This document shows positions 5,788 to 28,119 of a stretch of DNA of 35,321 nt, one piece after another (position 1 is the first letter of the stretch; the number at the start of each line of letters is the position of its first letter). The notes under the pieces were generated by a model. It was not told the origin of the DNA. It made no database searches and saw nothing but the letters and a program-made list of their open reading frames with translations. The position numbers were made by a program, and so were the translations under genes. Origin of the DNA: Flavobacteriales bacterium (lineage in GTDB: Bacteria; Bacteroidota; Bacteroidia; Flavobacteriales; Flavobacteriaceae); NCBI GenBank assembly GCA_027061855.1, contig JAMOVT010000070.1, positions 1 to 35,321 on the forward strand, written 5' to 3'.

Positions 5788-5799
5788 GATTTAATTTTT

Positions 5800-7704: not shown

Positions 7705-7780
7705 GGTTTTGGAATCGTGGAATCGTGGAATTGATAATTTGATAATATTATGACGTGAAGATGCCGTAAATGGTGAAATC

Positions 7781-8025: not shown

Positions 8026-8202
8026 AACAACTGTCAACCAATAACTAACCCCTAATAACCAACAACTAAAAACTGACAACTAACAACTAACAACTGATAA
8101 CTAACAACTGATAACTAACAACTGATAACTGACAACTGATAACTAACAACTGATAACTGACAACCAACAACTGATAACTCACAACTGACAACTAACAACA
8201 AA
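8012..8202 (+). repeat. A/C-rich AACTGATAACTAACAAC tandem array before hypB
   Basis: About 19 degenerate units of a 7-10 base word (ACTGATA, ACTAACA, ACTGACA) fill the last 190 bases of the hypB leader. G occurs only in the CTGA words, so an RNA copy would have almost no secondary structure. Similar arrays in the same orientation relative to the next gene precede hypE, the NuoD-like and the NuoH-like genes. It lacks the equal spacers of a CRISPR array. Confidence 0.75.
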
Positions 8203-8212
8203 AAATAATACT

Positions 8213-9016: not shown

Positions 9017-9059
9017 AAATCAGTTTGCCTTAAATTGAAGACAAAACGGGCGACAAAGA

Positions 9060-11342: not shown

Positions 11343-11363
11343 TTTAAATATTTTTTTATCTAT

Positions 11364-12464: not shown

Positions 12465-12514
12465 CTGATAATTTGATGATACAATGATATGATAATGTGT
12501 TAAATTGTGGAAGC

Positions 12515-12772
12515 GTGGAACTGATTTATAAAGGTGGCTGAGTGTCCCGATCCCCAACATAGTTGGGGACGGGAAATATCGAAGCTACCGATTATGGAAT
12601 AGTTAAATTATGGGATTAGTTATAGATTAAACAAATTAACAGTTAAATTAGAAAACATTTGCCGGATGAACGATGCCAGATGACCAAAATTAAAATATAA
12701 AAAGAGTTAATAATAACTAATAATAGTTTATCAGATTATCAAAAAAAACAGTAAATCAATCATACTAACAAA
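12515..12772 (+). repeat. Leader repeat copy B (upstream of hypE), homologous to 7781-8025
   Basis: This is the second copy of the leader described at 7781-8025. The block from GCCGGATGAACGATGCCAG through AAAATTAAAATATAAAAAGAG is identical in both copies; the hairpin core differs. Duplication of a whole leader next to two genes of one pathway is clear from the sequence. Its direction of copying is not known. Confidence 0.8.
12533..12589 (+). repeat. Hairpin repeat with inner TCCCCAAC/GTTGGGGA stem
   Basis: Outer arms GGTGGCT (12533-12539) and AGCTACC (12583-12589) are followed and preceded by the family words GAGTG and TATCGA. The core is a strong inner stem, CCCG-a-TCCCCAAC (12546-12558) with GTTGGGGA-c-GGG (12562-12573), around a three-base loop. 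Confidence 0.65.
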
Positions 12773-12885
12773 CTGACCATAAACAACAAACAACAGAAAA
12801 CTGACAACTGACAACTAATAACTGACAACTAACAACAGAAAACTGACAACTGACAACTAATAACTGACAACTAATAACTAAAAAC
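12763..12885 (+). repeat. A/C-rich AACTGACAAC tandem array before hypE
   Basis: About a dozen degenerate ACTGACA/ACTAATA/ACAACAG words end 3 bases before the hypE ATG. Same type and same orientation relative to the next gene as the array at 8012-8202. An RNA copy would be nearly free of G and unstructured. Confidence 0.72.
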
Positions 12886-12887
12886 AA

Positions 12888-13940
12888 ATGAACAAAAGCC
12901 TATTCAAATTACAATGTCCGGCTCCCAAATTTGATTTTGACATTATCACTTTGGCCCATGGCAGCGGTGGATTATTAACTAACCAATTACTGGAAACAGG
13001 TGTTTTTGATTTATTGAAAAATGAGACTTTGGATAAACACCACGATGGTGCTTTCTTGGAATTAAATGGAAAAGTAGCTTTTTCTACCGATAGCTTTGTG
13101 GTTTCCCCTATTATATTTCCGGGAGGTGATATTGGTGAATTAGCCGTGAACGGCACTGTAAATGATGTGGCTATGTGTGGTGCTATTCCCCAGTATTTAT
13201 CTTTGAGTTTTATCATAGAAGAAGGTTTACCTATCAGTCAATTTTGGGATATTTTGGTATCAATTAAATATGCCGCAGAAAAATCAGGCATAAAAATAGT
13301 TACCGGCGATACAAAAGTGGTGGACAAGGGGAAAGGCGATAAAATTTTTATCAATACTACCGGAATCGGAAGGATACATCCGCAAGCGGATATTGATATG
13401 AACCGGATAAAAACAGGCGATAAAATCATTGTTAGCAATTCGGTTGCTACCCATGGGATAGCTATTTTGTCTGTACGAGAAGGCTTACAATTTGAAACGG
13501 ATATTAAAAGTGATACTACCAATTTAAATCATATAACAACGAAGTTATTGGATGAATTTGAAAAAAATATACATTTGTTTAGAGACCCTACTCGAGGCGG
13601 TGTAGCTGCTACTCTCAATGAAATTGCGAGTGAAATAAAGAAAGGTATCTTATTGCAAGATGAAAAAATTCCCGTATTACCACAAGTAAAAGCCGCTTGT
13701 GAAATACTGGGACTGGACCCGCTATATTCGGCCAATGAGGGGGTATTTATGGCTTTTGTAGAACCCGGGATTGCCCATGATGTCATAAAAATCCTACAAG
13801 AATTTGATGAAGCCAAAAATGCCGCTATTATCGGAGAAGTAGTTGATGAACATAATGGCAAAGTATTAATTACTAACCCAATGGGGGGAAAACGTGTGGT
13901 ACATATGCCCATCGGGGAGCAATTGCCTCGAATTTGTTAG
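12888..13940 (+). CDS. hypE: Carbamoyl dehydratase HypE
   Basis: HypE converts the carbamoyl group that HypF places on its C-terminal cysteine into a cyano group, using ATP. It is a PurM/AIR synthase-like protein of 350 residues. The glycine-rich LAHGSGGLL, the metal/ATP-site segment STDSFVVSPIIFPGGDIGELAVNG (shown split: STDSFVVSP, then FPGGDIGELAVNGTVNDVAM) and GDTKVVDKGKGD are visible. The end is PRIC, with Cys350 as the modified residue; any C-terminal extension would abolish function, so the stop at 13938-13940 is right. It is separated from hypD by a repeat leader but reads in the same direction. Confidence 0.97.
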   Translation: MNKSLFKLQCPAPKFDFDIITLAHGSGGLLTNQLLETGVFDLLKNETLDKHHDGAFLELNGKVAFSTDSFVVSPIIFPGGDIGELAVNGTVNDVAMCGAIPQYLSLSFIIEEGLPISQFWDILVSIKYAAEKSGIKIVTGDTKVVDKGKGDKIFINTTGIGRIHPQADIDMNRIKTGDKIIVSNSVATHGIAILSVREGLQFETDIKSDTTNLNHITTKLLDEFEKNIHLFRDPTRGGVAATLNEIASEIKKGILLQDEKIPVLPQVKAACEILGLDPLYSANEGVFMAFVEPGIAHDVIKILQEFDEAKNAAIIGEVVDEHNGKVLITNPMGGKRVVHMPIGEQLPRIC

Positions 13941-14060: not shown

Positions 14061-14732
14061 ATGAAACTACCATTATTTATCGGATTTATTGCTGCTTTAT
14101 TGCATGTATTATCAGGGCCTGATCATCTGGCTGCGGTTACCCCTTTGGCACTTGAAAGGAAAAACAAATATTGGAAAATAGGAATGGCATGGGGATTAGG
14201 GCATGTTTTAGGAATGTTGCTGATTGGGGTTCTATTTTACTTTTTGAAGGAAGTAATTCCTGTGGACAGGATTTCACATTATAGTGAAAAATTTGTCGGA
14301 TTTATGCTGATTGCCATTGGTCTTTGGGCCATCTATCGCATAAATAAACCTAAAAAATTGGCTTATCCACACAGGCATGATGAGATCATTCATATACATT
14401 CTACTTCAGATGAAATGCATAGTCATGATGAATTGAAACCGAACAGCAATGTTTTGTTATCTTTCGGAATCGGTATTGTGCATGGTTTTGCCGGGGTATC
14501 TCATTTTATTCTGATGTTACCGGTATTAGGCTATCAATCCAAATGGGAATCCTTGGAATATATGATAGGTTTTGCCATCGGTATTGTTGCTGCCATGGTA
14601 TTATATGTCAGTGTGTTGGAAAAAGTAACAAACAAATCGAAAAAAGGTTCTACCAAAATACTTGAATCCTTACAATATTTTGGTGCCTTTGCTGCAATAG
14701 CAATCGGGTTTTATTGGATATTAATTAATTAA
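14061..14732 (+). CDS. UreH/NicO-superfamily membrane transporter, probable nickel importer
   Basis: This 223-residue membrane protein has about six hydrophobic segments. The first carries LHVLSGPDHLAAVTPLA, the GPDHL signature of UreH-like proteins and a relative of the HX4DH nickel motif of NiCoT transporters. A second His segment GLGHVLGM and a third, GIVHGFAGVSHFILM, resemble metal-path motifs. A cytoplasmic or external His-rich loop (HRHDEIIHIH, MHSHDE) lies between helices 3 and 4. Position directly after hypE makes nickel uptake for the hydrogenase the likely role. Heavy-metal efflux or TauE-like anion export is possible for distant relatives but less probable here. Confidence 0.82.
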   Translation: MKLPLFIGFIAALLHVLSGPDHLAAVTPLALERKNKYWKIGMAWGLGHVLGMLLIGVLFYFLKEVIPVDRISHYSEKFVGFMLIAIGLWAIYRINKPKKLAYPHRHDEIIHIHSTSDEMHSHDELKPNSNVLLSFGIGIVHGFAGVSHFILMLPVLGYQSKWESLEYMIGFAIGIVAAMVLYVSVLEKVTNKSKKGSTKILESLQYFGAFAAIAIGFYWILIN

Positions 14733-14791: not shown

Positions 14792-16582
14792 CTATTCCCC
14801 CATCAACATTTTATCAATGGCTTTGGTCGCAATAAATCCGTCGGCAATGGCAGAAATGGCATCATTTCGACCGCTGGTAATGGCGTCACCACCGGCAAAT
14901 AATTTGGGTATGCTGGTTTGACGGTTTTCATCCACTACAATTTTATTTTTTTGCATTTCCAATTTTGCCAATATATGTTCGGGAAGTAAACTGAAATCCG
15001 CTTTTTGCCCGATAGCGGCAATTACCGAATCACATTCGATAACGGTTTCACTACCCGGAATGGGTTTAGGTCGCGGACGTCCTCCCCCTTCGGACACCAT
15101 TTCGGCTTTTACATATTCCAAACCTTTTACTTTGCCGTTTTCATCTTTAATTACCCTTGTAGGAATGGTTTGCGGCATGAAATGTACTCCTTCTGCTTCT
15201 GCTCCTTCAATTTCTTCCAAATCTGCAGGCATGTCTTGAATTCGCCGCCTGTATGATTGATAAACTTCCGCTCCCAAGCGTCTGGAAACTCGCGAACAGT
15301 CAATGGATACATCTCCTCCTCCCACAACTACGACTTTCTTTCCTATATCCACTTGCTCTCCGGCATTGATTTTACCTAAAAATTTAATCGCCGACCATAC
15401 ACCTTCGGCATCTTCTCCTTCAATACCCAAATTCCAAGCATCTTGTAAACCTACCGCCATAAATACAGCATCATTATTATTATAAATCTCATCAAAAGAA
15501 ATGTCTTTTCCCACGCGGGTATTGAAATTGATTTTCACCCCTACTTTTTTCATATAATCAACCTGCTTTTGGATACTGTCATAAGGTAAACGATATTTTG
15601 GAATACCATACATAATCATTCCTCCGGGATCTTTATGTGCTTCATAAACCGTCACATTATACCCTCTTAACGAGAGGTAATAAGCAGCTGTTAATCCACC
15701 GGGTCCTGCTCCGATAATACCCACTTTATATTGATTGGGTTCTCTGATTTCCGGATTAACAATTTCTTTGATCACATCGGCATTTTCGGCTCTTGAGGTA
15801 GCATACCCCTTTAGCCAACGAATTGCAACAGCCTCACCTCTCACTTGTAACGCACAGATATCTTCACAACGCCGTGTACAAACTTTACCGCACATTTCGG
15901 GCAGGTCGTTATTGTCGTAAATAATTTTGATGGCCGCCTCATCATCGGCATTGGCAATGGCATTGATATACTCAGGGATATGCATATGCACGGGGCAATT
16001 TTCCGTACATAAACCGCAGCTTATACAACGGCTGGCCTCAATGCGTGCTTCTTCTTCGTTGTAACCTAAAAATACTTCGGCAAAAGATTTCACCCGTTCT
16101 TCCGGGTCCAACTCCCTCATAGGCACACGATCAAATACATTGAGTGAAGTGCCCAAGTCGGCCGTAAAGCTCAATTTATCCTTAGCCTCTGGATTGTCTT
16201 TACCCGGCACCCATAAGAAATCATAAGGATTGTTACTTACTTTTATAAAATCTTGGGTCATATTCAACGATCCCGATGGACAAACATCCACACAAAGCGC
16301 ACAGTAACAACATCTTCCGTAATCAATCTGCGGACGCAAACCGCTGTCTCCGGGTTGCCTTTCGATTTCAGATAATGCCACCATATCGATGGCTTCATTC
16401 ATACAAATAGTCGCACAGTTGGCACAGCCTATACAGGCTTCCAAATCGTTGTAATGAAAACCACGATAACGTTTTGAAATTTCTTTTTCTTCATACGGGA
16501 AATTAATCGTATGCGGCTCCTTGCCTATTTGTTTTAGTGCCGTAAGCGGGGTTAATATGCCTTTTAAGTTAAGAATACTCAT
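14792..16582 (-). CDS. NuoI/MbxN-like ferredoxin domain fused to GltD/NfnB-like NAD(P)H flavoprotein
   Basis: This 596-residue fusion has two parts. Residues 1-130 look like NuoI/MbxN: YRGFHYNDLEACIGCANC with the first [4Fe-4S] set Cys50/53/56/60, and the second set Cys91/94/97/101 ending in CPSG. Residues 160-596 look like the small subunit of glutamate synthase or NfnB/SudA. They hold a CISCGLC...CP motif (Cys186/189/192/196), CGKVCTRRCEDIC (Cys231/235/239/243), an FAD Rossmann motif GAGPGG at 291-296, and a second dinucleotide site VVVVGGGDVSIDCSR with YRRR near 444-447 that suggests NADPH. The end FAGGDAITSGRNDAISAIADG is the usual FAD-binding close. It is the last gene of the MBX-like operon, so it probably supplies or receives the electrons. 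Confidence 0.88.
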   Translation of the reverse strand: MSILNLKGILTPLTALKQIGKEPHTINFPYEEKEISKRYRGFHYNDLEACIGCANCATICMNEAIDMVALSEIERQPGDSGLRPQIDYGRCCYCALCVDVCPSGSLNMTQDFIKVSNNPYDFLWVPGKDNPEAKDKLSFTADLGTSLNVFDRVPMRELDPEERVKSFAEVFLGYNEEEARIEASRCISCGLCTENCPVHMHIPEYINAIANADDEAAIKIIYDNNDLPEMCGKVCTRRCEDICALQVRGEAVAIRWLKGYATSRAENADVIKEIVNPEIREPNQYKVGIIGAGPGGLTAAYYLSLRGYNVTVYEAHKDPGGMIMYGIPKYRLPYDSIQKQVDYMKKVGVKINFNTRVGKDISFDEIYNNNDAVFMAVGLQDAWNLGIEGEDAEGVWSAIKFLGKINAGEQVDIGKKVVVVGGGDVSIDCSRVSRRLGAEVYQSYRRRIQDMPADLEEIEGAEAEGVHFMPQTIPTRVIKDENGKVKGLEYVKAEMVSEGGGRPRPKPIPGSETVIECDSVIAAIGQKADFSLLPEHILAKLEMQKNKIVVDENRQTSIPKLFAGGDAITSGRNDAISAIADGFIATKAIDKMLMGE

Positions 16583-16757: not shown

Positions 16758-17120
16758 TTATTTCTTTAATGTATTTACAAATGCCAGCATCATATTCATC
16801 AATTTATATGATAGTAAATAATGCTTGTCAAAATCATTTTCATTTAAATAATTTCTTCTTTTGGCTTTATGTAAGCATGTAACTACTTCTGCCAATGAAC
16901 GTATGGAATATCCCATAAATTTTCTTTGCTCAGGATTTGATTGAAAAATGGAACCTTCTGCAATATTCAATGCAATACTATCGGATGCTCTTCTCAATTG
17001 TGATGATAGATTAAATTTTTCTTTTTCAGGAAAAGTATCGGCTAGCGCATACATATCTTCCCCAAAATCCATAGCCTCTTGCCAAATTCTTAATTTTTCA
17101 AATTTAAATTTATTTTCCAT
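16758..17120 (-). CDS. Four-helix-bundle protein of the 23S rRNA intervening-sequence (S23/IVP) family, copy 1
   Basis: The 120-residue protein has the family hallmarks FEKLRIWQEAMDFGEDMY, LSSQLRRASDSIALNIAEGS, KFMGYSIRSLAEVVTCLHKAKR and a helical end. The family was first seen as an ORF in 23S rRNA intervening sequences and is distantly related to the Avd accessory protein of diversity-generating retroelements; no molecular function is established. It lies between the NuoD-like and NuoI-like genes of the operon, where no such gene belongs, with inverted repeat arrays on both sides. It is about 60 percent identical by eye to copy 2 at 20307. No reverse transcriptase or transposase is near. 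Confidence 0.9.
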   Translation of the reverse strand: MENKFKFEKLRIWQEAMDFGEDMYALADTFPEKEKFNLSSQLRRASDSIALNIAEGSIFQSNPEQRKFMGYSIRSLAEVVTCLHKAKRRNYLNENDFDKHYLLSYKLMNMMLAFVNTLKK

Positions 17121-17199: not shown

Positions 17200-17336
17200 T
17201 TATTCGGTAAAAGATTGCCACCTCGTTCATGCCTTACTCCTCACAATGACATTCAACACCCCATATTTCTACAACACCTGACATCATTCATCCAGCATCC
17301 AACACCAGTCATCGGTCATCTAACATCCTGCATCAT
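17200..17336 (-). repeat. Intergenic repeats upstream of four-helix-bundle copy 1
   Basis: 17211-17255 resembles a common Bacteroidota repeat (minus strand: AATGTCATTGTGAGGAGTAAG, shortened here to TGTCATTGTGAGGAG, ending GGTGGCAATCTT). 17274-17336 is a tandem array of GATGNNNG words, densest as GATGACCGATGACTGGTG, ending at the stop codon of the NuoD-like gene. Confidence 0.5.
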
Positions 17337-18445
17337 CTTTCAATCTCCGGCGGACAAACTCCCAATGAATTCAAAATAAACGAAACATCGGCAATATTTT
17401 GTCCGGGTAATATTTTTTCCAATACTTTTACACCATGCGTATAAGCCGCTCCTTTTAAGTGAACTCTTCGAGGCTTGTTGCTTCCATCGCTTATTACATA
17501 AAAACCTATTTCACCTCGTACACTCTCGGTTTTTACCCAGGCTTCACCGGGAGGCAGTTTCCATTTCATCGGATTAGGAATTCGGTTGTAATAACTTCCT
17601 CCCGGTAAATTATCTAAGGCCTGTCTGATAATGCTTATAGACTGCTTTATTTCATCTCTTCGAACCAAGGCTCTTGCCCATACATCTCCTCCTTCATAAG
17701 TAGGAACAATAAAATCCATATCGGCATAAGCTTCATAAGGTTCATCTATGCGCACATCGTGTTTGATTCCGGTTCCTCTTAAAGGGGCTCCTACCACTCC
17801 CCATTCAATTGCTTTATCCTTGGGAATAATGCCGACTCCTTGAGCCCGTTTTTGAAAAACGGCATTATCAAATAAAAGCTTATTATAATCGTCCAATCGC
17901 TTTTCAAGATAGTCCATGGTTTTATAGGCTTTATCCACCCAGCCCTCGGGCAAATCACGCCTTACTCCACCGGGCCACATATACATATGATAAATTCGTG
18001 CACCGGTTAAGTCTTCAAATAGATCCAAAATATAGTTTCTGTCTCCCACACTCCATTGCCCCAAAGTATAAAGCCCGGCAGACCCCGACTGACCGCCATA
18101 CCATAATAAAAAAGACTGAATACGGGCCAATTCGGCTACTATAGTACGGATATACTTCCCTCGCGGAGGCACTTCTCTTCCTTCAATCGCTTCTACAGCT
18201 CGCGCAAAAGTCAGTTCCATGGGATCGGGTTCGGGAACACAAAACCGGCACATCAAAGTAAAAGATTGAAGCCAGTTACGGCGTTCCACCAATTTTTCAA
18301 AGGCACGATGTAAGTAACCCACATGGGTTTCGGCACTTGTTACAATATCACCTTTTACTTTAAGCTTAATCATCATATTACCGGTTATCCCGGGATGCTG
18401 AGGGCCCAAATATAAAGTGGTTTCTTTTTCTCTATTTATGTTCAT
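17333..18445 (-). CDS. NuoD/MbxL/MbsL-like large subunit ([NiFe]-hydrogenase-derived, 49-kDa family)
   Basis: The 370-residue protein belongs to the complex I 49-kDa/group 4 [NiFe] hydrogenase large-subunit family: it opens LYLGPQHPGITG and has ETHVGYLHRAFEKL and AELARIQSFLLWYGGQ. It keeps the N-terminal CxxC of a [NiFe] site, LMCRFCV (Cys66, Cys69), but the C-terminal DPCxxC is replaced by GVCPPEIER (Cys364, Glu367). Thus one of the four metal ligands is lost and the Glu is as in NuoD. The remaining His after the first CxxC is also not in its usual place. It is neither a standard hydrogenase nor a standard NuoD; the MBX/MBS class fits best. It follows the NuoC-like gene after a 300-base repeat leader. 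Confidence 0.9.
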   Translation of the reverse strand: MNINREKETTLYLGPQHPGITGNMMIKLKVKGDIVTSAETHVGYLHRAFEKLVERRNWLQSFTLMCRFCVPEPDPMELTFARAVEAIEGREVPPRGKYIRTIVAELARIQSFLLWYGGQSGSAGLYTLGQWSVGDRNYILDLFEDLTGARIYHMYMWPGGVRRDLPEGWVDKAYKTMDYLEKRLDDYNKLLFDNAVFQKRAQGVGIIPKDKAIEWGVVGAPLRGTGIKHDVRIDEPYEAYADMDFIVPTYEGGDVWARALVRRDEIKQSISIIRQALDNLPGGSYYNRIPNPMKWKLPPGEAWVKTESVRGEIGFYVISDGSNKPRRVHLKGAAYTHGVKVLEKILPGQNIADVSFILNSLGVCPPEIER

Positions 18446-18745: not shown

Positions 18746-19300
18746 TTAATCCCTCGAATATTTTTTAGCAAAATCCGGCAATTCTTCTCCCGTACGTTTC
18801 ATCAATTCCTCTCTTACATCTCTTGCATTTTCACGGCCCGGACGTTTTTGATAGGTTTTTTCCGCATAAGCAGCCGTATCAAAATCTTTACGCATGGGCG
18901 GAATTTCTTGCCAGTCTTCCAAAATAAATTCTTTGGCACCCACCAATCCCGGAAATTCAATTCCGAACATTTCTCTCATTTCTCTTTCATAGGTATTGGC
19001 TTGATCCCAAATGGTATCTATATTTTCCATTACCGGATTGGATCTGTCAATTCGCGTATGCACCAACACGGTAATTTTATTTTCCGGATCCCAAACTATA
19101 TAAACCAATTCAAATTCGTTATCTTCAATCCAATCCACACAGGAAATATGATTTAAATGTATAAACCCCAACTGCGTTTTCAGATATAACAATACGCTCG
19201 ATACAAGATTTTTATCTACATCTACTCGTAGCTGATTCTCGTTTTTTTGCTTGGCTTTGAGAGTAAAGGTTTGATTAATTTTTTGAATAATATTGTTCAT
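18746..19300 (-). CDS. NuoC/MbxK-like 30-kDa subunit
   Basis: This 184-residue protein is a complex I 30-kDa family member. Its signature is NTYEREMREMFGIEFPG near residues 107-123, matching the ERE-x-x-D/E-MFGI motif. It ends with the usual region around LEDWQEIPPMRKDF and a Pro/Arg-rich tail that reaches over the NuoB subunit. It contains no cofactor motifs. NuoC and NuoD are separate genes here, as in MBX/MBS and not fused as in E. coli. It starts 168 bases after the NuoB-like gene. Confidence 0.92.
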   Translation of the reverse strand: MNNIIQKINQTFTLKAKQKNENQLRVDVDKNLVSSVLLYLKTQLGFIHLNHISCVDWIEDNEFELVYIVWDPENKITVLVHTRIDRSNPVMENIDTIWDQANTYEREMREMFGIEFPGLVGAKEFILEDWQEIPPMRKDFDTAAYAEKTYQKRPGRENARDVREELMKRTGEELPDFAKKYSRD

Positions 19301-19468: not shown

Positions 19469-20122
19469 CTACCAATTATACTCATCCGGAAAATTCCAAT
19501 TTTTTATTACTTTTTGTTGGTTTTCACGATACCAATCCAGATTTTTTCTATAACATTCTCCATTGCCTGCATTCCCATTTTGTATTAATTCTTGCAATTT
19601 TACAAATCCTTTAATCACACTTTCGGGGCGAGGCATACAACCCGCGATATAAACATCCACAGGCAAGTATCTATCCAGCGCATTTATGGTATTATAACTG
19701 TCAAAATACATTCCGCCGTTTATGGTACAGGAACCGAATGCAATCACATATTTGGGATCTTGCATTTGTTCATATACACGAATTACCCTTTTAAGTGTTT
19801 TGGTAGATAAATAGCCGGTAATCAATAGCACATCCGCTTGTCTGGGAGTCGCTGCACCGCGAATACCAAATCGCTCGGCATCATAACGGGAGGTCATGGT
19901 AGCAGGGATTTCAATCGCGCCACAACCTGTTCCGTAGGCCAAAACAAACAAGGAATGCTTACGGGCAAAATCCAGAATGTATCGCACCATTTTTTGGGTT
20001 TCCTTGTCATTCACCCTACCGGCAGAAGAACATCTCGGAGAAAAGTCAATTTGTGCCTGGCGAATTTCTTCTTCGGAGGGAATTCCAATGGTTTTAATTT
20101 TAGTATTTGGATTTTTTGTCAT
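19469..20122 (-). CDS. NuoB/MbxJ/MbsJ-like subunit with three-cysteine proximal cluster site
   Basis: The 217-residue protein is the small (PSST/NuoB) subunit that carries the proximal [4Fe-4S] cluster. Ligand cysteines seen are Cys67 (YGTGCGAIEIPA), Cys132 (AFGSCTINGG) and Cys162 (AGCMPRPESV). The tandem CC of NuoB (CCxxE) is CG here, so only three conserved ligands remain. This fits the site-differentiated cluster described for Pyrococcus MBS; complex I and MBH have four. Cys31 in the N-terminal extension and Cys190 in the tail are extra and could in principle contribute. It lies 184 bases after four-helix-bundle copy 2, with a 47-base tandem repeat in its leader. Confidence 0.9.
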   Translation of the reverse strand: MTKNPNTKIKTIGIPSEEEIRQAQIDFSPRCSSAGRVNDKETQKMVRYILDFARKHSLFVLAYGTGCGAIEIPATMTSRYDAERFGIRGAATPRQADVLLITGYLSTKTLKRVIRVYEQMQDPKYVIAFGSCTINGGMYFDSYNTINALDRYLPVDVYIAGCMPRPESVIKGFVKLQELIQNGNAGNGECYRKNLDWYRENQQKVIKNWNFPDEYNW

Positions 20123-20306: not shown

Positions 20307-20666
20307 TTAATTTATTTTATTTTTAAAAGCAATCATCATATTCATCAAATCATAAGATTCGTCATAAAAGCGTTTAAAGGTTGATTCATTAATATATTTT
20401 CTTCTCTTTGCTTTATACAAACAAGTTACAACTTCTGCCAAAGAGCGTATAGAATAAGACATAAATCTTTTAAATTCAGGATTAGTTTGCCCTATTGCTC
20501 CTTCTGATATATTTAACGCAATAGAATCAACTGCCCGACGTAATTGAGATGATAAATTATATAACTCAAAATCCGGAAAAGCATAAGCCATCTGATTAAT
20601 CTCTTCGCCAAAATCCATTGACTTTTGCCAAATCCTTAAATCTTCAAACTTAAATTTCTTTTTCAT
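20307..20666 (-). CDS. Four-helix-bundle protein of the 23S rRNA intervening-sequence (S23/IVP) family, copy 2
   Basis: This 119-residue paralogue of the gene at 16758 has FEDLRIWQKSMDFGEEIN, LSSQLRRAVDSIALNISEGA and FMSYSIRSLAEVVTCLYKAK. The most conserved part, the central SSQLRRA-DSIALNI and SIRSLAEVVTCL helices, is nearly the same in both copies. It interrupts the MBX-like operon between the NuoH-like and NuoB-like genes. The reading frame is intact, so the gene is probably expressed from the operon transcript. Function is unknown. Confidence 0.9.
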   Translation of the reverse strand: MKKKFKFEDLRIWQKSMDFGEEINQMAYAFPDFELYNLSSQLRRAVDSIALNISEGAIGQTNPEFKRFMSYSIRSLAEVVTCLYKAKRRKYINESTFKRFYDESYDLMNMMIAFKNKIN

Positions 20667-20827: not shown

Positions 20828-21787
20828 CTAACTTCCAACCGGATGCAATACCGCCCAAATTACTGCCAATATTCCGAAAAATGTAGGCCATTTCCAAAAA
20901 AACCGGATAGCTTGCTCCGTTCTGAAACGCGGGCTCACTAAGCCTATAAATACAGGAATCATATACAACAAAAAGGTTTTTAAAAGCAATTCTCCCAGTC
21001 CGATCAAAGTTCCGGCCAAACCGCTCATATGTACATTTCCTGCTCCTCCTAAAAATATGTCGACAATTAAGACTAATTTGATAAAAGCAAACACAGATCC
21101 TCCCGTCATCATGGTTCCCAGATATTTTCCTCCGAATTCGGACACAGGTCCGGATGCCAATTCTGCCGGAGCTCCTACAATATCAAAAGGCGAATAGCGA
21201 AACATTCCCAAAGAAGACATGAGAGCTGCTAAAAAGGCAAACGGGTTATCCAAAATAATCCATCTTCCCGTTTGGTATTGATAATTCATTAAATCTTGCA
21301 ACGAAGTGGTATGAAATTGGATCATAATCGCAACAAGGGATAATACAAAAGGAATTTCATAACCCACCATTAAACTCAATCCACGAGTTACCCCGATAGC
21401 CGAATTGGGATTTCCGGATTGCCCTGCTCCCAATGCCATTCCCAAACTTCCGAAGACCATCATATACAAGATAAAAATCAAATCTCCTTTAAAAGTAAGA
21501 TTATCAAACCATAGTCCGTTGTGCAAAATGGGAATAAACATCAAAACAGTCATGGCTGCAATAATAATCCACATAGGAGCCATATGTCCCATGAAACCGT
21601 GAGCAATATTGGTTTGTTTTCCTTGCAATTTCATCAGATCGATAAAGTTCTGATATACCGGAGGTCCTACCCTGTTTTGAACGCGAGCGGTAATTTTGCG
21701 ACGCAATCCCCCGTAAAACATTCCAACGGTAAAAGCCAAAATCGCCGTTAAAAAAGCTCCGAAAATTTTTAATCCTATTCCTTCCAT
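20828..21787 (-). CDS. NuoH/MbxM-like quinone-site-family membrane subunit
   Basis: The 319-residue protein is a complex I subunit 1/NuoH homologue with about eight membrane helices. The early loop RRKITARVQNRVGPPVYQNF is the conserved GPxxxG-like connection to NuoB/NuoD. Other family words are MVFGSLGMALGAGQSGNPNS, RGLSLMVGYEIPFVLSL, and RYSPFDIVGAPAELASGPVSEFGG with acidic residues lining the E-channel. NCBI-type names would be HyfC/EchB/MbxM; the protein links the catalytic arm to the pumps. The last residues (PVGS) are encoded within the ACTTC array that follows, so the C-terminus may have been changed by repeat insertion. Leader: an A/C-rich array at 21791-21966. Confidence 0.93.
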   Translation of the reverse strand: MEGIGLKIFGAFLTAILAFTVGMFYGGLRRKITARVQNRVGPPVYQNFIDLMKLQGKQTNIAHGFMGHMAPMWIIIAAMTVLMFIPILHNGLWFDNLTFKGDLIFILYMMVFGSLGMALGAGQSGNPNSAIGVTRGLSLMVGYEIPFVLSLVAIMIQFHTTSLQDLMNYQYQTGRWIILDNPFAFLAALMSSLGMFRYSPFDIVGAPAELASGPVSEFGGKYLGTMMTGGSVFAFIKLVLIVDIFLGGAGNVHMSGLAGTLIGLGELLLKTFLLYMIPVFIGLVSPRFRTEQAIRFFWKWPTFFGILAVIWAVLHPVGS

Positions 21788-21983: not shown

Positions 21984-23828
21984 TTACCTAAAAATATAAT
22001 CCTTAAATAATAATAACAAAACTAAGAATCCGATTACATATAAAGCATAGGTTTGTCCGTTTCCCGTATAGATTCGCCGGAAAAAATTAAAGAAGGCTTC
22101 CAAAGCATTTCCAAAATCCTCCCAGATTTTGTTCATCTTATATTTATATAAAGGAGCGGCGGCTCTTTCAAAAGGTTTATAAAAATCTTGTTGAAAAGTC
22201 CAATTCTCTCCTTCTTTCCAAAGCTCTCCCGAGCTGGAAATATCTTTTGTGCCAACGTACCGGGTATTTTTCTTTCCTTTAAATGTCAAGAAAATGAAAA
22301 TCAAGACAAATACTGCTGCTATAAACAAGCCTATCAAACTCAAATCGGTTTGATTTCCCCAAACATTTGATAACGAAGTCATTTCCCAATTCACATTTTC
22401 AAAACCAATTTCCCGCATAGCAGCGGCTGCCGGTTTAAATATCAAGCCCGGCATTATTCCGGTTACTATGGAAATGAGGGCCAATATTAACATGGGAATC
22501 AACATCTTTACCGGGGCTTCTTTCACATTTTCGGTTTCTTTTTCTTCCTGCCCTAAGAACAATCCGAATAAAAACCTATATGCATACAAGAAAGCGGCGG
22601 TGGATGAAAAGAAGATTACAATCACCAAAAAATAATTGTTACTTTCTGTGATTAGGGCTTCATATAATAACCATTTTCCTACAAATCCCCCTACCGGCGG
22701 AATACCTGTCAAGGCAATAACAGAAACCAAAGCTACAAAAAAGGTCCAAGGCATTTTTCTTATCAAACCCGAAATCTTTGTCATATCGGTGGTGCCGGCT
22801 TGTTTCTCTACGGCTCCCGCCACCATAAATAAAGCTCCTTTGAATACTGCATGCAATACGGCCAAATAAAGAGCAGCCATTACTCCGAGTTTGGTTCCCG
22901 TTGATAGAGCAACCACAATATAGCCCAATTGGGAAATGGAAGAGTAGGCCAATAATCTTTTGGCATCGGTCTGAATTAATGCATATATTGTGGCCATTGC
23001 AGCAGTAATTCCGCCCAACCAAGCCAAAATTTGGGTAAAAATATAGGCTTGCGGATTATGCAAGGCATAATAGGTCGATAAAACCAATAACAATCCGAAT
23101 ATTCCCATTTTTGACATTGCTCCCGAAAAAACACTGGTAAAGGACATGGGACTATCGGCATAGGCCGAAGGTGCCCAAATATGAAAAGGCATAATAGCCG
23201 CTTTTATAGCAAATGCCAAGGCAAAAAACAAGGGAATATAAATATGATTTTCGAAAGAAAATACACCTTGATCAATTGCAGTAGCTATATCAAAAGTGCC
23301 ATAAAAATGATATACAAAAACAATTGCCGTGAGCATTGCATAGGCGCCTATGGCACTAAAAATCATATATTTTAAACCTTCGGTTTTTATTTTATAATAA
23401 GCATTGTAAATAATTAACAAAAAGGAAGACCAAGTCATAATTTCCCAAAAAATAAAGAAGGAAACAAAATCTTTACTGATCACCACTCCGAACATTCCAA
23501 GTACCGTAAGAAGAAAAGCCGAATAAAAATAACCTAAACGGGCTTTCCCCTTCATATAATCTATAGAATAAAGAAAAGCCAATAAGTTAAGTATGATAAT
23601 AATATAAGTAAAATATAAACGCAAAGAAGATAATCCCCATTTTAACCGGATTCCTCCTAAACTAAAAACCACATCAGATGCCTGGGTTTGAGAAAGAAGA
23701 TTAAATGTAGCCAGTAATACACTTAAAAAAGCTACCCAACCCGTCCATTTTCTGTTTATGCTATCTATTCCAAATGCCAAAATACTTCCGGCAAATAAAA
23801 CAAGTAATATGTTGATAATCGGATTCAT
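21984..23828 (-). CDS. Second MrpD/NuoL/NuoM-type antiporter-like subunit (MbxH'-like)
   Basis: This 614-residue proton/ion-pump subunit has some 14-16 membrane helices plus a long C-terminal part ending in another helix (YALYVIGFLVLLLLFKDYIF). The key charged residues of the pump core are present: Glu129 in FIFWEIMTWSSF, Lys209 in AIKAAIMPFHIWAPSAY and Lys240 in GAMSKMGIFG. The extension after residue 490 contains an amphipathic region with many aromatic residues and may be a lateral helix. Two such subunits in a row distinguish MBX/MBS from MBH, which has one. It starts 10 bases after the MrpD-like gene stop. Confidence 0.93.
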   Translation of the reverse strand: MNPIINILLVLFAGSILAFGIDSINRKWTGWVAFLSVLLATFNLLSQTQASDVVFSLGGIRLKWGLSSLRLYFTYIIIILNLLAFLYSIDYMKGKARLGYFYSAFLLTVLGMFGVVISKDFVSFFIFWEIMTWSSFLLIIYNAYYKIKTEGLKYMIFSAIGAYAMLTAIVFVYHFYGTFDIATAIDQGVFSFENHIYIPLFFALAFAIKAAIMPFHIWAPSAYADSPMSFTSVFSGAMSKMGIFGLLLVLSTYYALHNPQAYIFTQILAWLGGITAAMATIYALIQTDAKRLLAYSSISQLGYIVVALSTGTKLGVMAALYLAVLHAVFKGALFMVAGAVEKQAGTTDMTKISGLIRKMPWTFFVALVSVIALTGIPPVGGFVGKWLLYEALITESNNYFLVIVIFFSSTAAFLYAYRFLFGLFLGQEEKETENVKEAPVKMLIPMLILALISIVTGIMPGLIFKPAAAAMREIGFENVNWEMTSLSNVWGNQTDLSLIGLFIAAVFVLIFIFLTFKGKKNTRYVGTKDISSSGELWKEGENWTFQQDFYKPFERAAAPLYKYKMNKIWEDFGNALEAFFNFFRRIYTGNGQTYALYVIGFLVLLLLFKDYIFR

Positions 23829-23838
23829 GCTTACAATC

Positions 23839-25320
23839 TTATTTATTAGCTAATATTTGTTGAATATAATGAGTCTTATCGAGTAAAGCCGCAGCCGCTT
23901 GATTGATATAGCCGGTAATTATGTCGGGATATATACCGATAAGAATAATAAAGAGAGCCAAAAAACTCATTGCCACCAAAGCATTTACAGAAGGTTTATG
24001 CGCAATATCTTGCATTTCTTCTTTGGCAAAATATATACGCCCTACCAAACGTAAATAATAGACCAATTCAATAATGGTTACCAATAAAATTCCTATAATC
24101 AAGAAAATCATTTTTTGGTCGGACGCAGCTATCAAAATATAAAATTTACTCCAAAATCCCGAGAAAGGTGGAAACCCGATAATAGCAAATGCCGCCAAGG
24201 AAAAAAGGGCGGATACATAAGGTAATCGCTTATGCATTCCGTTTAAACCTTCCAAGCGTTTTTCTCCGGAATTATAAATAAAATAACTTCCCGTCATAAA
24301 TAAAAGCGATTTGATAACGGCATGATTCAGCATCAAAAACAAGGCTCCGAATACAGCTAATTGACTGCCTATGCCAAAAGCGATCAATACCAAACCTACT
24401 TGACCGATACTGGAATAGGCCAGCATACGTTTCAAGTTTTTTTGAGAGATAGCCGCTATTTCCGCCACAAGCATCGTTATAAAACCCATTACAATTAAAT
24501 ATTGATGTACACCGGAAACATCAAAAAGGGTAAAAAGAACACGCACCAAAGCATAAATCCCGGCTATGGAAACCACAGCGGCAAAGGTCGCACTTGTAGG
24601 AGAAGGTGCCTGTTCATAAGCATCCGGCGTCCATCCGTTGAGCGGAAACATTTCGGCTTCAATTCCAAGGGCAATCAGGAAAAATATCAAAGCCGTGATT
24701 TTGATTCCGGAGGAAACTTCCGGCATTCGCTCGGCTATTTGAGCCATATTAAGGGTACCGGTTTGGGTATAAATAAGTAAAATGGCTAAAAGTAAAAAAA
24801 CGGAAGCCAAACTTCCCAAGAGCAAATATTTAAAACCGGCTTCGGCACCGTTTCTATCCCGATAGAAAGCCGTTAAGGAATAGGCTGTAATCCCTACAAT
24901 TTCAATAAAAACAAACATATTGAACAAATCACCGGTAATAATCACTCCGATAGAACCGGCTATCATCATCATTTGCAGTATTTCATAATATTTTACTACA
25001 CCTCCTTTAAGAGTTCTTTTAAACCGGAAGCCATATAGCCAAATGATAAAACCCATTACCGAAACCATTGCGGCCAAAAATCCCGTAAAAGGTGTAAGAA
25101 CCAAATTTATTCCCCAAGGAGGTTGCCATCCTGCAATTATTTCATTGATCATGCCATGTTTTAGAACTTGCCGCATTAATACAAAGGAAATAATCATATT
25201 GTAGAATAAAACGATTCCAGGCACTACCCTTGCTGCATCTTTATAAATTTTTGACAAAAGCGGAATGGCAAAGGCTGCCAAAAGAGGGGCGACGATATAA
25301 TGAACAGGAGTTATTACCAT
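23839..25320 (-). CDS. mrpD: MrpD/MbhH/MbxH-like antiporter subunit
   Basis: The 493-residue protein is an MrpD/NuoN-type membrane subunit of about 14 helices. Glu140 in NMFVFIEIVGITAYSL is the conserved helix-5 acid. In helix 7, where NuoL/MrpD have Lys (KAA-FPFH), this protein reads GIEAEMFPLNGWTPDAYEQAP, so Lys is replaced by Glu221/Glu223; the second Lys (TK/SK before VG) is also absent (VVSIAGIYAL). EAE-FPLN is characteristic of the MbhH/MbxH class that contacts the Mrp-C/NuoK part. It overlaps mrpC by 7 bases (translational coupling). Confidence 0.93.
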   Translation of the reverse strand: MVITPVHYIVAPLLAAFAIPLLSKIYKDAARVVPGIVLFYNMIISFVLMRQVLKHGMINEIIAGWQPPWGINLVLTPFTGFLAAMVSVMGFIIWLYGFRFKRTLKGGVVKYYEILQMMMIAGSIGVIITGDLFNMFVFIEIVGITAYSLTAFYRDRNGAEAGFKYLLLGSLASVFLLLAILLIYTQTGTLNMAQIAERMPEVSSGIKITALIFFLIALGIEAEMFPLNGWTPDAYEQAPSPTSATFAAVVSIAGIYALVRVLFTLFDVSGVHQYLIVMGFITMLVAEIAAISQKNLKRMLAYSSIGQVGLVLIAFGIGSQLAVFGALFLMLNHAVIKSLLFMTGSYFIYNSGEKRLEGLNGMHKRLPYVSALFSLAAFAIIGFPPFSGFWSKFYILIAASDQKMIFLIIGILLVTIIELVYYLRLVGRIYFAKEEMQDIAHKPSVNALVAMSFLALFIILIGIYPDIITGYINQAAAALLDKTHYIQQILANK

Positions 25321-25706
25321 TTCAAAGATTTTATTTGTTCAATATTTGCTGTTTGATGATGTTTGTATAATCTAATTACCAGTGATAAAGCTAATGCGGT
25401 TACTGCAAAACCAATTACAATAGCCGTTAAGACCAAAGCTTGGGGCACAGGATCTACCATTCTGTTCGCTGCCTTTTCATAACCCGGAGAAAAAATAGGA
25501 GCAGTACCGTTTTGTATATAACCCACCGCTACAAAAAGCAAATGTACACCCGCATCAATTATGGATAGTCCAATTACTATTTTAATCAAATGTTTTTTAA
25601 GCAAAACGGCATACAACCCAATAATAATTAACATAATAGCCGTTCCGTAAACCGCAATGGTAATCAGGTCTTTATATTTGATAAAAAGTTCGTTAAATTC
25701 GTTCAT
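25314..25706 (-). CDS. mrpC: MrpC/NuoK-like subunit
   Basis: The 130-residue, three-helix protein of the NuoK/MnhC family starts the pumping chain next to MrpD. Its first helix is AVYGTAIMLIIIGLYAVLL, the second KIVIGLSIIDAGVHLLFVAVG has the internal acidic Asp, and the third PQALVLTAIVIGFAVTALAL has the typical PQALVLTAIVI. The insert between helices 2 and 3 (GTAPIFSP, DPVPQ) is typical of MrpC. It overlaps mrpD by 7 bases and follows the mrpB-like gene by 20 bases. Confidence 0.93.
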   Translation of the reverse strand: MNEFNELFIKYKDLITIAVYGTAIMLIIIGLYAVLLKKHLIKIVIGLSIIDAGVHLLFVAVGYIQNGTAPIFSPGYEKAANRMVDPVPQALVLTAIVIGFAVTALALSLVIRLYKHHQTANIEQIKSLKW

Positions 25707-25726: not shown

Positions 25727-26452
25727 TTATCTTTCTTTACGCGGTTTGATTTTCAATAAAATATCCAAAATATTAGTGAGCTCCGTGCTTACTTTTATTC
25801 CAATGAAAATATATATAAGCGGAATAAATCCTCCACTGATTAAATCATTGAGAGTCCCTACCGAACGGGTATTTTGTAAAAAAGAACCGTAAACGAAAAG
25901 ACCATATAAACCAATGGCCACAAAAGCCAATCCAGCCAAACTTTCCAACCAAAGCATGATATTATGATTGGTATTAAATCTCTTATAGGTAATAAGCATC
26001 AAAAGGAACCCGGTGGCTATAATAGCGCCTCCTTGAAATCCACCCCCGGGAGTTAAATGTCCATGCACAAAAACATAAATTCCTAACAATAGAACCAACG
26101 GAAAAAGAATCTTTGCTCCGGTTCTCAATAAACTGGAAGAACGCAATACAATTCTTTCTTCTTTATCTTCCTCTTCTTCTTTGCGATATAAAATACTTGC
26201 CAAGCCAGTGGCTGCCAAAAATAGTACAGTTACTTCCCCCAATGTATCAAATCCTCTGAAATTTACCACTATGGCGGTTATACTGTTTGCTGTGTGAAGT
26301 GTTTCGGGAGCTTCTTTTAAATAAAAAGCTGCTACTCTATCAGGATTTTCCAAGTTTCCTCTTCTGTCTTTTCCAAAAGGTATATCTTTAAAAGTTTGAG
26401 AAAGTGTCAAACCCAAAATTGCTAAAAACAAAAAAACTATATATCGTTTCAT
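25727..26452 (-). CDS. mrpB: MbhE-MrpB (MbhF) fusion-type subunit
   Basis: The 241-residue protein joins two Mrp modules. Residues 1-90 match MbhE/MrpA-C-terminal: NFRGFDTLGEVTVLFLAATG. Residues 100-241 match MrpB/MbhF: HGHLTPGGGFQGGAIIATGF, then VGTLNDLISGGFIPLIYIFIG. Thus MbhE and MbhF of the archaeal complexes are one protein, with a highly charged linker (KEEEEDKEER) between them. It overlaps the upstream DUF4040 gene by 4 bases (ATGA), so translation is coupled. Six or seven membrane helices are expected. Confidence 0.88.
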   Translation of the reverse strand: MKRYIVFLFLAILGLTLSQTFKDIPFGKDRRGNLENPDRVAAFYLKEAPETLHTANSITAIVVNFRGFDTLGEVTVLFLAATGLASILYRKEEEEDKEERIVLRSSSLLRTGAKILFPLVLLLGIYVFVHGHLTPGGGFQGGAIIATGFLLMLITYKRFNTNHNIMLWLESLAGLAFVAIGLYGLFVYGSFLQNTRSVGTLNDLISGGFIPLIYIFIGIKVSTELTNILDILLKIKPRKER

Positions 26453-26733
26453 TTGCGGTCAAATTTATTTATATGATTCTCTGTATATTCATCTTCATTT
26501 CGTGAAGTATTACGAATAGTGATGATGAAAATAATGGTTGTCAATGCAATCCCGATGGCCGCTTCCGTAATAGCCACATCAGGAGCTTGCAGCAAATAGA
26601 AAAACACTGATAATATCAAACTGATAATTCCCGTAGCCAATACGGCATAGAGCAAATCCTTTTGAATCACGGCATAAATTGCAGCAGAAATAAGTATGAG
26701 AGCCATTATGATTAGAAAAAAGAGAAATGCCAT
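26449..26733 (-). CDS. MbhD/MrpA-C-terminal-like subunit (DUF4040)
   Basis: The 94-residue protein has three membrane helices. The word FYLLQAPDVAITEAAIGIALT is characteristic of the MbhD/DUF4040 family that forms part of MrpA in the antiporters; the acidic residues in it lie in the membrane and are thought to take part in ion movement. It is a separate small gene as in MBH/MBX. The start at 26731-26733 follows a 190-base spacer that contains a repeat and an ATTAAACAAATAAACG block. Its end overlaps the mrpB-like gene. Confidence 0.9.
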   Translation of the reverse strand: MAFLFFLIIMALILISAAIYAVIQKDLLYAVLATGIISLILSVFFYLLQAPDVAITEAAIGIALTTIIFIITIRNTSRNEDEYTENHINKFDRK

Positions 26734-26923: not shown

Positions 26924-26936
26924 TCACTCAGTCACC
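26889..26936 (-). repeat. 48-base hairpin repeat overlapping the end of mrpG
   Basis: On the minus strand it reads GGTGACTGAGTGATTGACGA, a changed core, then TTGTATCGAAGTCACC. It is the closest copy of the element at 7657-7704, with both arms changed so that pairing is kept (GGTGACT/AGTCACC here; GGTGGCT/AGCCACC there). The mrpG stop codon (26924-26926, TGA) and last three codons lie inside it. Confidence 0.75.
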
Positions 26937-27331
26937 TCTTTTCTTGTTTTACTATTTTCTTTTATCTTAGCCTTATTTCTTCGCTCTTTTTCTCTTTCCA
27001 CTTCTTCTTCATAAGCATCGATTTTTTTCTTAAAAAACGGTCTTATTCCGCGTCTGTATGAAGCACGAGCCAAAGCATGCGAGCTAAGCGGATTGGAGAT
27101 GCCGATAAACAAAATGATTACAATTAATTTTATCAACCAGGAAGGTTGCATAAGTCCCACTCCCAATACCACACTCATGGCTCCCAATGTTGAAGCTTTG
27201 GTTCCCGCTTGTAAACGGTTGTATAAATCGGGCATTCTGAAAATTCCCAAAGCGCCGAGAAATAAAAATATACTTCCCAATAATACAAATCCCAATCCCA
27301 AGTAATATAATATGTCGTTTAATGTATTCAT
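26924..27331 (-). CDS. mrpG: MrpG-like subunit
   Basis: The 135-residue protein is the MrpG/MnhG family (monovalent cation/proton antiporter). Its three helices include LGFVLLGSIFLFLGALGIFRMPDLYNRLQ, given here as LFLGALGIFRMPDLYNRL, and GTKASTLGAMSVVLG, followed by FIGISNPLSSHALARASYR. The C-terminal 45 residues are very basic/acidic (KKKIDAYEEEVEREKERR), longer than in many MrpG proteins. The last residues EVTE and the stop codon are supplied by a hairpin repeat. Its ATG overlaps the mrpF stop by 1 base. Confidence 0.9.
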   Translation of the reverse strand: MNTLNDILYYLGLGFVLLGSIFLFLGALGIFRMPDLYNRLQAGTKASTLGAMSVVLGVGLMQPSWLIKLIVIILFIGISNPLSSHALARASYRRGIRPFFKKKIDAYEEEVEREKERRNKAKIKENSKTRKEVTE

Positions 27332-27588
27332 TACAATGCTTTTTCTATATATCGGGCAATTACAATTATTCCTATAAAACCTAAAACCGCGTATACCAAC
27401 GCCAAATCGATATAGATATAACGTTTAAAAATATAGGCCAATAATACCAAACCGGCTATTCCTATAACCGATAAAGTATCCAAGGCAATGGCACGGTCAG
27501 CAGCGGTAGGGCCTTTTACAAAACGCATGAAAGCCAGCAAACTTCCGATGCCTATTAAAACAATTGAAAAATATATAATGCCGTTCAT
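27331..27588 (-). CDS. mrpF: MrpF-like subunit
   Basis: This 85-residue, three-helix protein of the MrpF/MnhF family contains FMRFVKGPTAADRAIALDTLSVIGIAGLVLLA, shown in short as KGPTAADRAIALDTLS, with the invariant DR-x-x-x-LD motif. It starts 15 bases after mrpE and overlaps mrpG by 1 base. Confidence 0.92.
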   Translation of the reverse strand: MNGIIYFSIVLIGIGSLLAFMRFVKGPTAADRAIALDTLSVIGIAGLVLLAYIFKRYIYIDLALVYAVLGFIGIIVIARYIEKAL

Positions 27589-27603: not shown

Positions 27604-28119
27604 TTAATTGGTTCCATAAATTTTCAATAAAACTTCCTCGAAAGGGGCTGCAATTTCTCGATAAACCTCTTCCGGATCTTGAGTTGTGACATCAATCCAG
27701 TGTATATAAAAATCATTTCCCACTACATCTATGGTTAAAGTCCCGGGAGTCAAAGTAATACTGTTGGCCAAAACCATTTTAGCAAAATCGTTATGTAATT
27801 TTGTTTTAAAATGTACAATTCCGGGATTAATGGGCAATTTGGGATTGATTACTCTACGCGCCACATCAAAATTTGCTTTTATCAGCGCAATGATAAAAAC
27901 AAAAAAGTATTGAATAAAATAAAGAATATGCGACGGAGCTATCAATATGGGATCACAGCAATTAAAATTTACCACCGTGATATAAGCCACCACCAGACTG
28001 ATAATAATTCCGGTTATAATTTCGGCAGGCTGAAAGGAGGTAGTAAAAGCATACCAAATTAAAAAAATGATAAAAAAGGTATAAAAAAATTTGCCGATTG
28101 TAAAATTCTTTGCAGCCAT
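27604..28119 (-). CDS. mrpE: MrpE-like subunit
   Basis: The 171-residue MrpE/MnhE family protein is the first gene of the MBX-like operon. It has two or three N-terminal helices (KFFYTFFIIFLIWYAFTTS, PAEIITGIIISLVVAYIT, YFFVFIIALIKANFDVARR) and a soluble domain with the family words INPGIVHFKT, LANSITLTPGTLTIDVVG, then IHWIDV. Two Cys (NFNCCDP) near the membrane are noticeable. A possible -7 box is at 28140-28147 on the minus strand. The order MrpE-MrpF-MrpG first agrees with mbxA-mbxB-mbxC of Pyrococcus. Confidence 0.92.
   Translation of the reverse strand: MAAKNFTIGKFFYTFFIIFLIWYAFTTSFQPAEIITGIIISLVVAYITVVNFNCCDPILIAPSHILYFIQYFFVFIIALIKANFDVARRVINPKLPINPGIVHFKTKLHNDFAKMVLANSITLTPGTLTIDVVGNDFYIHWIDVTTQDPEEVYREIAAPFEEVLLKIYGTN

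Follow-up and report, generated by a model that had tools for sequence, protein, structure and literature searches.

Architecture and Conservation of the Fused Protein

The stretch of DNA analyzed here (the window: all 35,321 nucleotides, forward-strand positions 1 to 35,321, of contig JAMOVT010000070.1 of the Flavobacteriales bacterium assembly GCA_027061855.1) carries a 13-gene operon on the minus strand, extending from position 28119 down to 14792, the last gene of which encodes a NuoI/MbxN-type iron-sulfur subunit fused to a GltD-type flavoprotein. The operon resembles that of the membrane-bound sulfane reductase (MBS, also named MBX) of Pyrococcus furiosus, its catalytic subunits carry MBS-type residues, and the flavoprotein half carries a lysine of the type present in StnC of Sporomusa ovata. 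These features suggest that the fused gene probably encodes the subunit through which electrons enter a bacterial complex of the MBS (MBX) type, which would be NADPH-driven, polysulfide-reducing, and H+/Na+-translocating.

The open reading frame begins with ATG and contains no internal stops. It had been located in an earlier description made from the letters of the stretch alone (the sequence-only reading), where its strand, the minus one, was omitted. The features of the fused protein are as follows:

14792..16582, minus strand: fused subunit, MbxN/NuoI plus GltD/StnC/NfnB-type NADPH:FAD domain, 596 amino acids
16193..16582, minus strand: MbxN domain, residues 1-130, with Cys50, 53, 56, 60 and Cys91, 94, 97, 101 as predicted ligands of two [4Fe-4S] clusters
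15782..16096, minus strand: Fer4_20 domain, residues 163-267, with Cys186, 189, 192, 196 and Cys231, 235, 239, 243 as predicted ligands of two more [4Fe-4S] clusters
14837..15730, minus strand: Pyr_redox_2 domain, residues 285-582, FAD and NAD(P)H Rossmann folds
15242..15253, minus strand: YRRR motif, residues 444-447, candidate site for the 2'-phosphate of NADPH
15809..15811, minus strand: Lys258, aligned without gaps to StnC Lys170 (proximal-cluster ligand) and to the Glu of NfnB/NfnL
15590..15592, minus strand: Arg331, aligned with StnC Arg239 and NfnB Arg201, near FAD N5

The sequence-only reading had proposed both halves of the protein, with a Fer4-type and a pyridine nucleotide-disulphide oxidoreductase domain to be looked for by a domain search, and both were recovered: Pfam matches were obtained to Fer4_7 (residues 50-104, E-value 5.8e-13), Fer4_20 (163-267, 4.2e-27), and Pyr_redox_2 (285-582, 1.6e-31), giving four predicted [4Fe-4S] sites in total. 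The MbxN domain scored 89.9 bits with subunit N of MBS (6u8y_N), 60.4 with the best complex I counterpart, and 53.5 with that of the membrane-bound hydrogenase (MBH). Nine cysteines lie at residues 50-60 and 91-101, i.e., the two sets of four and an extra, invariant Cys92, and eight at residues 186-196 and 231-243. All 17 are identical in 81/81 sequences (80 relatives and the window), as is the YRRR motif. The motif, already read as a pointer to NADPH, presumably favors NADPH over NADH.

The relatives were collected in one pattern scan of genome_contigs, in which 177 stretches matched and at least 156 encode a relative; the best 80 of 156 were kept (designated below by L numbers). All 80, which belong to assemblies of other species, show the two-part fusion, with lengths of 561-612 amino acids, four of them being truncated by contig ends (L017, L023, L068, and L073). 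Since the same two-part protein occurs in every one of them, a sequencing or assembly error joining two genes, which the sequence-only reading had named as one way in which its proposal could be undone, is excluded as the origin of the fusion. Nearly all the relatives are labeled as members of Bacteroidota or Chlorobiota/Ignavibacteria groups, apart from one Sulfurovum (L023), and the seven nearest among these best 80 of 156, with 90-96% identity, are labeled Flavobacteriales or Flavobacteriaceae. In its own 2.04 Mb genome the fused protein is the sole full-length match.

How widespread the fusion might be was a question that the sequence-only reading had left unanswered, and the answer is a partial one: at least 156 relatives exist, yet the fused protein (E-value ≤1e-150) was detected in only two of the 395 genomes sampled from the phylum, one of them its own, and is uncommon in this sample. 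An MBS-type NuoB (E-value ≤1e-45) is present in the same two genomes, and at that NuoB threshold no MBX lacking the fusion was seen among the 395. The architecture is already known as a curated, function-less NCBIfam model, NF010590/PRK13984 ("putative oxidoreductase"), which matches the two-part protein over its full length (residues 6-595, model positions 8-608 of 611; E-value 5.5e-191), although the score of 635.8 bits lies under the cut-off of 946; one of 14 control genomes gave a match over this cut-off. No description of an MbxN–GltD/NfnB fusion was found in the literature searched, the subscription literature being mostly outside reach. Thermotoga maritima (TM1217) may carry the same fusion, although the accessible parts of the Thermotoga literature mentioning TM1217 contain nothing on it.

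Operon Organization and Catalytic Core

The genes are arranged in the order mrpE, mrpF, mrpG, mbxD, mrpB, mrpC, mrpD, mbxH', nuoH, nuoB, nuoC, nuoD, and fused nuoI. The 12 genes preceding the fused one are listed here in that order:

27604..28119, minus strand: MrpE/MbsA-like subunit, first gene of the operon (PF01899, 142.5 bits)
27331..27588, minus strand: MrpF/MbsB-like subunit (PF04066, 63.5 bits)
26924..27331, minus strand: MrpG/MbsC-like subunit (PF03334, 89.5 bits)
26449..26733, minus strand: MbhD/MbsD-like subunit (PF13244)
25727..26452, minus strand: MrpB/MbsE-like subunit (194.0 bits to MbsE; MBH F 69.4, E 35.1)
25314..25706, minus strand: MrpC/MbsG-like subunit, NuoK type (PF00420, 97.3 bits)
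23839..25320, minus strand: MbsH/MrpD-like antiporter subunit (320.6 bits to MbsH, 226.9 to MBH)
21984..23828, minus strand: MbsH'-like antiporter subunit (289.8 bits to MbsH', 6u8y_X; 185.8 to MBH H)
20828..21787, minus strand: NuoH/MbsM-like subunit (175.4 bits to MbsM, 96.2 to MBH)
19469..20122, minus strand: NuoB/MbsJ-like subunit (217.2 bits to MbsJ)
18746..19300, minus strand: NuoC/MbsK-like subunit (Pfam/NCBIfam profile matches)
17333..18445, minus strand: NuoD/MbsL-like subunit (358.4 bits to MbsL)

Profile matches confirmed the names used in this study for the Mrp, hyp, nqr, and formate dehydrogenase genes. The gene order is that of the mbx locus of P. furiosus, PF1453 to PF1441 (PMC2678158); this and the other papers cited here were accessible in part, and what is attributed to them is drawn from those parts. 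A NuoD match lies on the strand of the fused gene in 78 of the 80 loci, the two exceptions (L009 and L066) starting at contig ends, and all 13 genes are visible in 38 loci, most of the others being limited by too little flanking DNA. The link between a pyridine-nucleotide module and a pumping complex, which had been predicted, is present in the form of a fused gene closing an MBX-like operon with pump subunits.

The subunits were compared with structural references for MBS (6u8y) and MBH (6cfw) and with the best-scoring complex I type. All seven parts compared (L, J, the N domain, M, H, H', and E) gave their top score with MBS: beside the values listed above, the NuoD-like subunit scored 248.6 bits with the best complex I and 135.0 with MBH, and the NuoB-like subunit 136.3 with the best complex I type (NDH-1) and 118.4 with MBH. 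In addition, MBH has two chains (E and F) where MBS and the operon of the window have a single E-type chain.

Cys67, Cys132, and Cys162 of the NuoB-like subunit correspond to C28, C93, and C123 of MbsJ, which in P. furiosus MBS are the only ligands holding the catalytic cluster (PMC7684303), and Gly64 stands in place of the non-ligand C25 of MbsJ. Among the 68 loci in which a NuoB was matched, the three cysteine motifs were found in 67, 67, and 68, the first being missing in L074 and the second in L065. In the NuoD-like subunit, Cys69 and Cys364 correspond to C85 and C385 of MbsL, which are remnants of the four [NiFe] cysteines; the P. furiosus variants C25A and C85A/C385A remain active (PMC7684303). 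An additional cysteine of the NuoD-like subunit, Cys66 (codon 18248-18250), lies next to a remnant [NiFe] cysteine, at a position occupied by Leu in P. furiosus MbsL. It was found in 74 of the 78 loci with a NuoD match, the motif region not being found in L013, L043, L051, and L062. On the evidence of its residues, the complex is of the MBS (MBX) sulfane-reductase type and not quinone-reducing. Its identification as a group 4 [NiFe] hydrogenase (MBH) was rejected, since only two of the four Ni-binding positions are cysteines, as in MbsL.

It was also considered whether the complex might resemble complex I and act as an NADPH:quinone oxidoreductase, the fusion taking the place of NuoEFG. The two systems belong to the same superfamily, and a NuoF-like domain was not found in seven of 14 relative genomes picked from the 80 loci (completeness of the genomes not stated). 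The only PF01512 match in the window's own genome is a NuoF-like open reading frame followed by a formate dehydrogenase alpha gene (L105, contig C47, 5254-9690; TIGR01959, 350.8 bits, under the cut-off, and TIGR01591, 805.3 bits, over the cut-off). However, the quinone-site residues His38 and Tyr87 of complex I are replaced by Thr21 and Val70 in the NuoD-like subunit, and the tandem-Cys motif of complex I is absent from the NuoB-like subunit; a quinone reductase identity was rejected on these active-site residues. By way of an internal control, both the tandem Cys and the His/Tyr motifs are retained in the other NuoB and NuoD of the same genome (contig C58). We therefore regard the quinone reading as quite improbable. 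The separate complex I genes comprise this NuoB and NuoD and, on contig C57, nuoH to nuoN-type open reading frames identified by eye; contigs C57 and C58 break off in nuoH and nuoD, and nuoEFG could lie there. All six nqr genes are present as well (profile matches). The sequence-only reading had presented the fusion as an alternative to NuoEFG, which is half right: the pyridine-nucleotide input stands, whereas the acceptor site is not of the quinone type and the genome has separate complex I genes and the six nqr genes.

The Flavoprotein Half

The cluster region suggests that the flavoprotein half is probably a StnC/GltD-like, non-bifurcating NADPH:FAD domain. Of the GltD/NfnB type assigned by the sequence-only reading, the fold class was retained, whereas the cluster region more closely resembles the non-bifurcating StnC. 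Over residues 185-400, the best solved relative was StnC (150.7 bits), the NfnABC chains and NfnL scoring 142-144, which amounts to a small preference. All 54 sequences of alignment A1 have Lys258, and the second cysteine set has the spacing observed in StnC, which is two residues shorter than in NfnB/NfnL. In the accessible part of the StnABC paper, bifurcating NfnB is described as having a Glu cluster ligand, whereas StnC has Lys and a non-bifurcating flavin. Glu250 was considered as an NfnB-type ligand and rejected, since the alignment with StnC places the ligand at Lys258. Foldseek searches with the predicted structure gave NfnL, Xfn, StnC, NfnABC, and GltS as best matches, with root-mean-square deviations of about 9-10 angstroms for NfnL, StnC, and GltS, and consequently back the C-terminal fold only.

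Arg331, the counterpart of NfnB Arg201, and the presence of a PRK07565-type gene adjoining the operon in 24/80 loci would be in keeping with an NfnB-like bifurcating flavin sharing the electrons of NADPH between the pump and a second acceptor, for which the PreA-like neighbor might provide the site in some relatives. We judge this very improbable: Lys258 and the StnC-type spacing disfavor NfnAB-type bifurcation, as does the lack of an NfnA-type partner, no PF10418 (NfnA/DHODB Fe-S) match being present in the window's own genome, which is rated 95.23% complete, whereas this profile was found in six of 14 control genomes; nor does any PRK07565 match in that genome exceed the cut-off, the best one reaching 20 bits. 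The lysine of the NfnABC chains, dealt with below, weighs in the other direction.

The PRK07565-type (PreA/dihydroorotate-dehydrogenase-like) genes lie upstream of mrpE in 20 loci and directly after the fused gene in four; where more than 350 bases are available upstream of mrpE (32 loci), such a gene is present there in 18. Examples occur in L083 (11787-12773, 418.7 bits), L076, L078, and L080, and at the 5' ends of L020, L028, L041, L061, L068, L082, and others. The pairing of such a gene with a GltD-like module recalls dihydropyrimidine dehydrogenase.

Neighboring Genes

A [NiFe] hydrogenase cluster adjoins the operon (window 2214-13940), in which genes for the small and large subunits, cytochrome b, a protease, and hypC face hypA, B, F, D, and E; its subunits match models of the Hyd-1/Hyd-2 type. 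Parts of this hydrogenase/hyp cluster are also located 3' of the fused gene in L009, L011, and L074. Between hypE and the fused gene lies a gene for a small membrane protein (14061-14732) with weak TauE/SafE and DsbD_2 matches, possibly a metal or sulfur transporter. In the close relatives L008 (12264-14535) and L006, a molybdopterin oxidoreductase-like gene, identified by eye, lies 3' of the fused gene. Two genes for four-helix proteins of the 23S rRNA-intervening-sequence type (23S-IVP) are inserted in the operon (16758-17120 and 20307-20666), and the position of similar genes in the operons of relatives varies.

Proposed Mechanism and Alternatives

Since the input subunit is fused to an NADPH-oxidising flavoprotein, NADPH, and not ferredoxin, is the probable driver of the pump. 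It would reduce the FAD, from which the electrons would exit singly, passing first through the Lys258-type cluster and the second flavoprotein cluster and then through the MbxN pair before arriving at the proximal cluster of the NuoB-like subunit. Because only three cysteines of that subunit would bind this cluster, one iron would be open, at which the S-S bonds of polysulfide may be cleaved. The reaction would be coupled to H+ via NuoH and the MrpD/H'-like subunits and to Na+ via the other Mrp-like subunits. Reduced ferredoxin is a stronger reductant than NADPH, so that each electron pair would be expected to move fewer ions here than in P. furiosus. The MBS of that archaeon is described as operating likewise, from ferredoxin (PMC7684303).

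Among the pump-module residues, the equivalents of MbsH E138, MbsH' E128, K217, K248, and K399, and MbsM E203 and E211 are kept in all the sequences examined, and those of MbsH E219 (47/51) and K393 (50/51) and MbsM D196 (59/63) in nearly all. Certain changes in these modules weigh against the mechanism proposed: His is absent from the positions of MbsH H330 and MbsH' H336 in 51/51 and 54/54 sequences, Glu is absent from those of MbsM E104 and E193 in 62/62 and 63/63, and the counterpart of MbsH K250 is Ile252 in the window (codon 24565-24567) and Ile or Val in 8/51 relatives. These altered residues fit a changed stoichiometry, but are no proof of one.

Several other points count on the same side. 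Cys66 might be an added, fourth ligand of the proximal cluster, altering or completing its ligation, in which case MBS-type catalysis could be blocked. Ferredoxin could be the donor to the MbxN domain, and no dedicated polysulfide gene was identified within the window. When the entire flavoprotein domain is considered, it is NfnL that scores highest (306.4 bits), and two NfnABC complexes (9n5u and 9bov), the second of which is called bifurcating in its entry title, also have a Lys at the position of Lys258 in the chains that bear GltD, so that Lys alone does not settle the non-bifurcating character. Lastly, the AlphaFold model of the fused protein has a mean pLDDT of 67.1, with nothing usable at residues 1-149 and no distances derivable across the fusion, probably because the 54-sequence alignment is shallow.

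The NADPH-driven sulfane reductase was set against two other uses of the same parts. The complex might be a ferredoxin:NADP+ oxidoreductase, in which the MbxN clusters would take electrons from ferredoxin and the FAD domain would make NADPH, sulfur being reduced by other enzymes. In line with this, the genome contains three POR-type matches over the cut-off, and GltD-type modules are reversible. A ferredoxin:NADP+ role was also formerly proposed for P. furiosus MBX (PMC2678158, PMC6349859). Electrons following this route need not reach the NuoB/NuoD site at the membrane, so that pumping would go unexplained, and the three-Cys proximal cluster, which is the sulfane reductase site in P. furiosus, is kept in 67/68 loci with a NuoB match. 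We consider this reading rather unlikely.

The complex might also operate in reverse, sulfide or persulfide being oxidised at the proximal cluster and the ion-motive force pushing electrons uphill to NADP+, so that NADPH is supplied. Three COX1-type matches over the cut-off, together with the six nqr genes, make an ion-motive force derived from oxygen respiration plausible; the names of L020, L033, L040, L053, L070, and L074 suggest sulfur caves, deep-sea dives, or Guaymas, these places being our reading of the names; and the redox span is small, which would make either direction feasible. MBS has been described as a reductase, however (PMC7684303), and operation in this direction strikes us as unlikely.

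Returning to NADPH-driven polysulfide reduction, a more specific form of it can be put forward tentatively, as a possibility less likely than not. The complex may be a distinct respiratory enzyme of Bacteroidota-type bacteria, an ion-pumping NADPH:polysulfide oxidoreductase whose StnC-type NADPH entry is permanently joined to an MBS core. Its active site would be modified by the gain of Cys66 in L and the loss of C25 in J, its pump would be adjusted to the narrower span between NADPH and sulfur, and it might be reversible so as to make NADPH from sulfide and ion-motive force.

Relationships with Known Systems and Implications

The fusion complex shares with the P. furiosus MBS (6u8y) the gene order, the single MbsE chain, the three-Cys proximal cluster, the Mrp-like membrane arm, the two remnant [NiFe] cysteines, and the absence of the quinone residues. 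It differs in that MbsJ C25 is lost, L gains Cys66, and residues are altered in H, H', and M, and in that N is a free-standing ferredoxin acceptor in P. furiosus, whereas here it is fused to an NADPH:FAD domain; since N is not free-standing, we have classified the complex as a variant working like MBS and not as a plain member. A bacterial MBX operon is also present in T. maritima, where it has 13 subunits, is predicted to be ferredoxin-driven, and shows a 4.36-fold increase of mbxA on sulfur (PMC9431562).

StnC of S. ovata StnABC (8oh5) has in common with the fused protein the GltD-like NADPH:FAD domain, the Lys cluster ligand, the Arg near the FAD, and the spacing of the second cysteine set, and it hands the electrons of NADPH singly to Fe-S clusters, as proposed here. 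Unlike StnC, the fused protein has no NuoG-like domain, its operon has no StnAB-type genes, and the flavoprotein is fused to MbxN in what would be a pumping complex. With NfnB/NfnL (T. maritima 4ylf and P. furiosus 5jca) it shares the fold, the Arg near FAD N5, the two [4Fe-4S] clusters, and the YRR motif, but it has Lys in place of Glu, a second cysteine set two residues shorter, and no NfnA-type partner was found. As in complex I with NuoEFG, a pyridine nucleotide would feed a pumping complex of NuoB/C/D/H/I type, but here the input is of the GltD instead of the NuoF type, and the acceptor site is not a quinone site.

P. furiosus MBX was first proposed to be a ferredoxin-NADP+ link (PMC2678158, PMC6349859), whereas a later description makes it a sulfane reductase driven by ferredoxin (PMC7684303). 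The bacterial version has an NADP(H)-type site on the very chain that forms its electron-input subunit. If the interpretation proposed here is correct, NADPH would directly feed a proton or sodium pump with polysulfide as the acceptor, the complex I superfamily would have a further type of pyridine-nucleotide entry beside NuoEFG, and the complex would provide a testable case of pump stoichiometry adapting to a smaller driving force.

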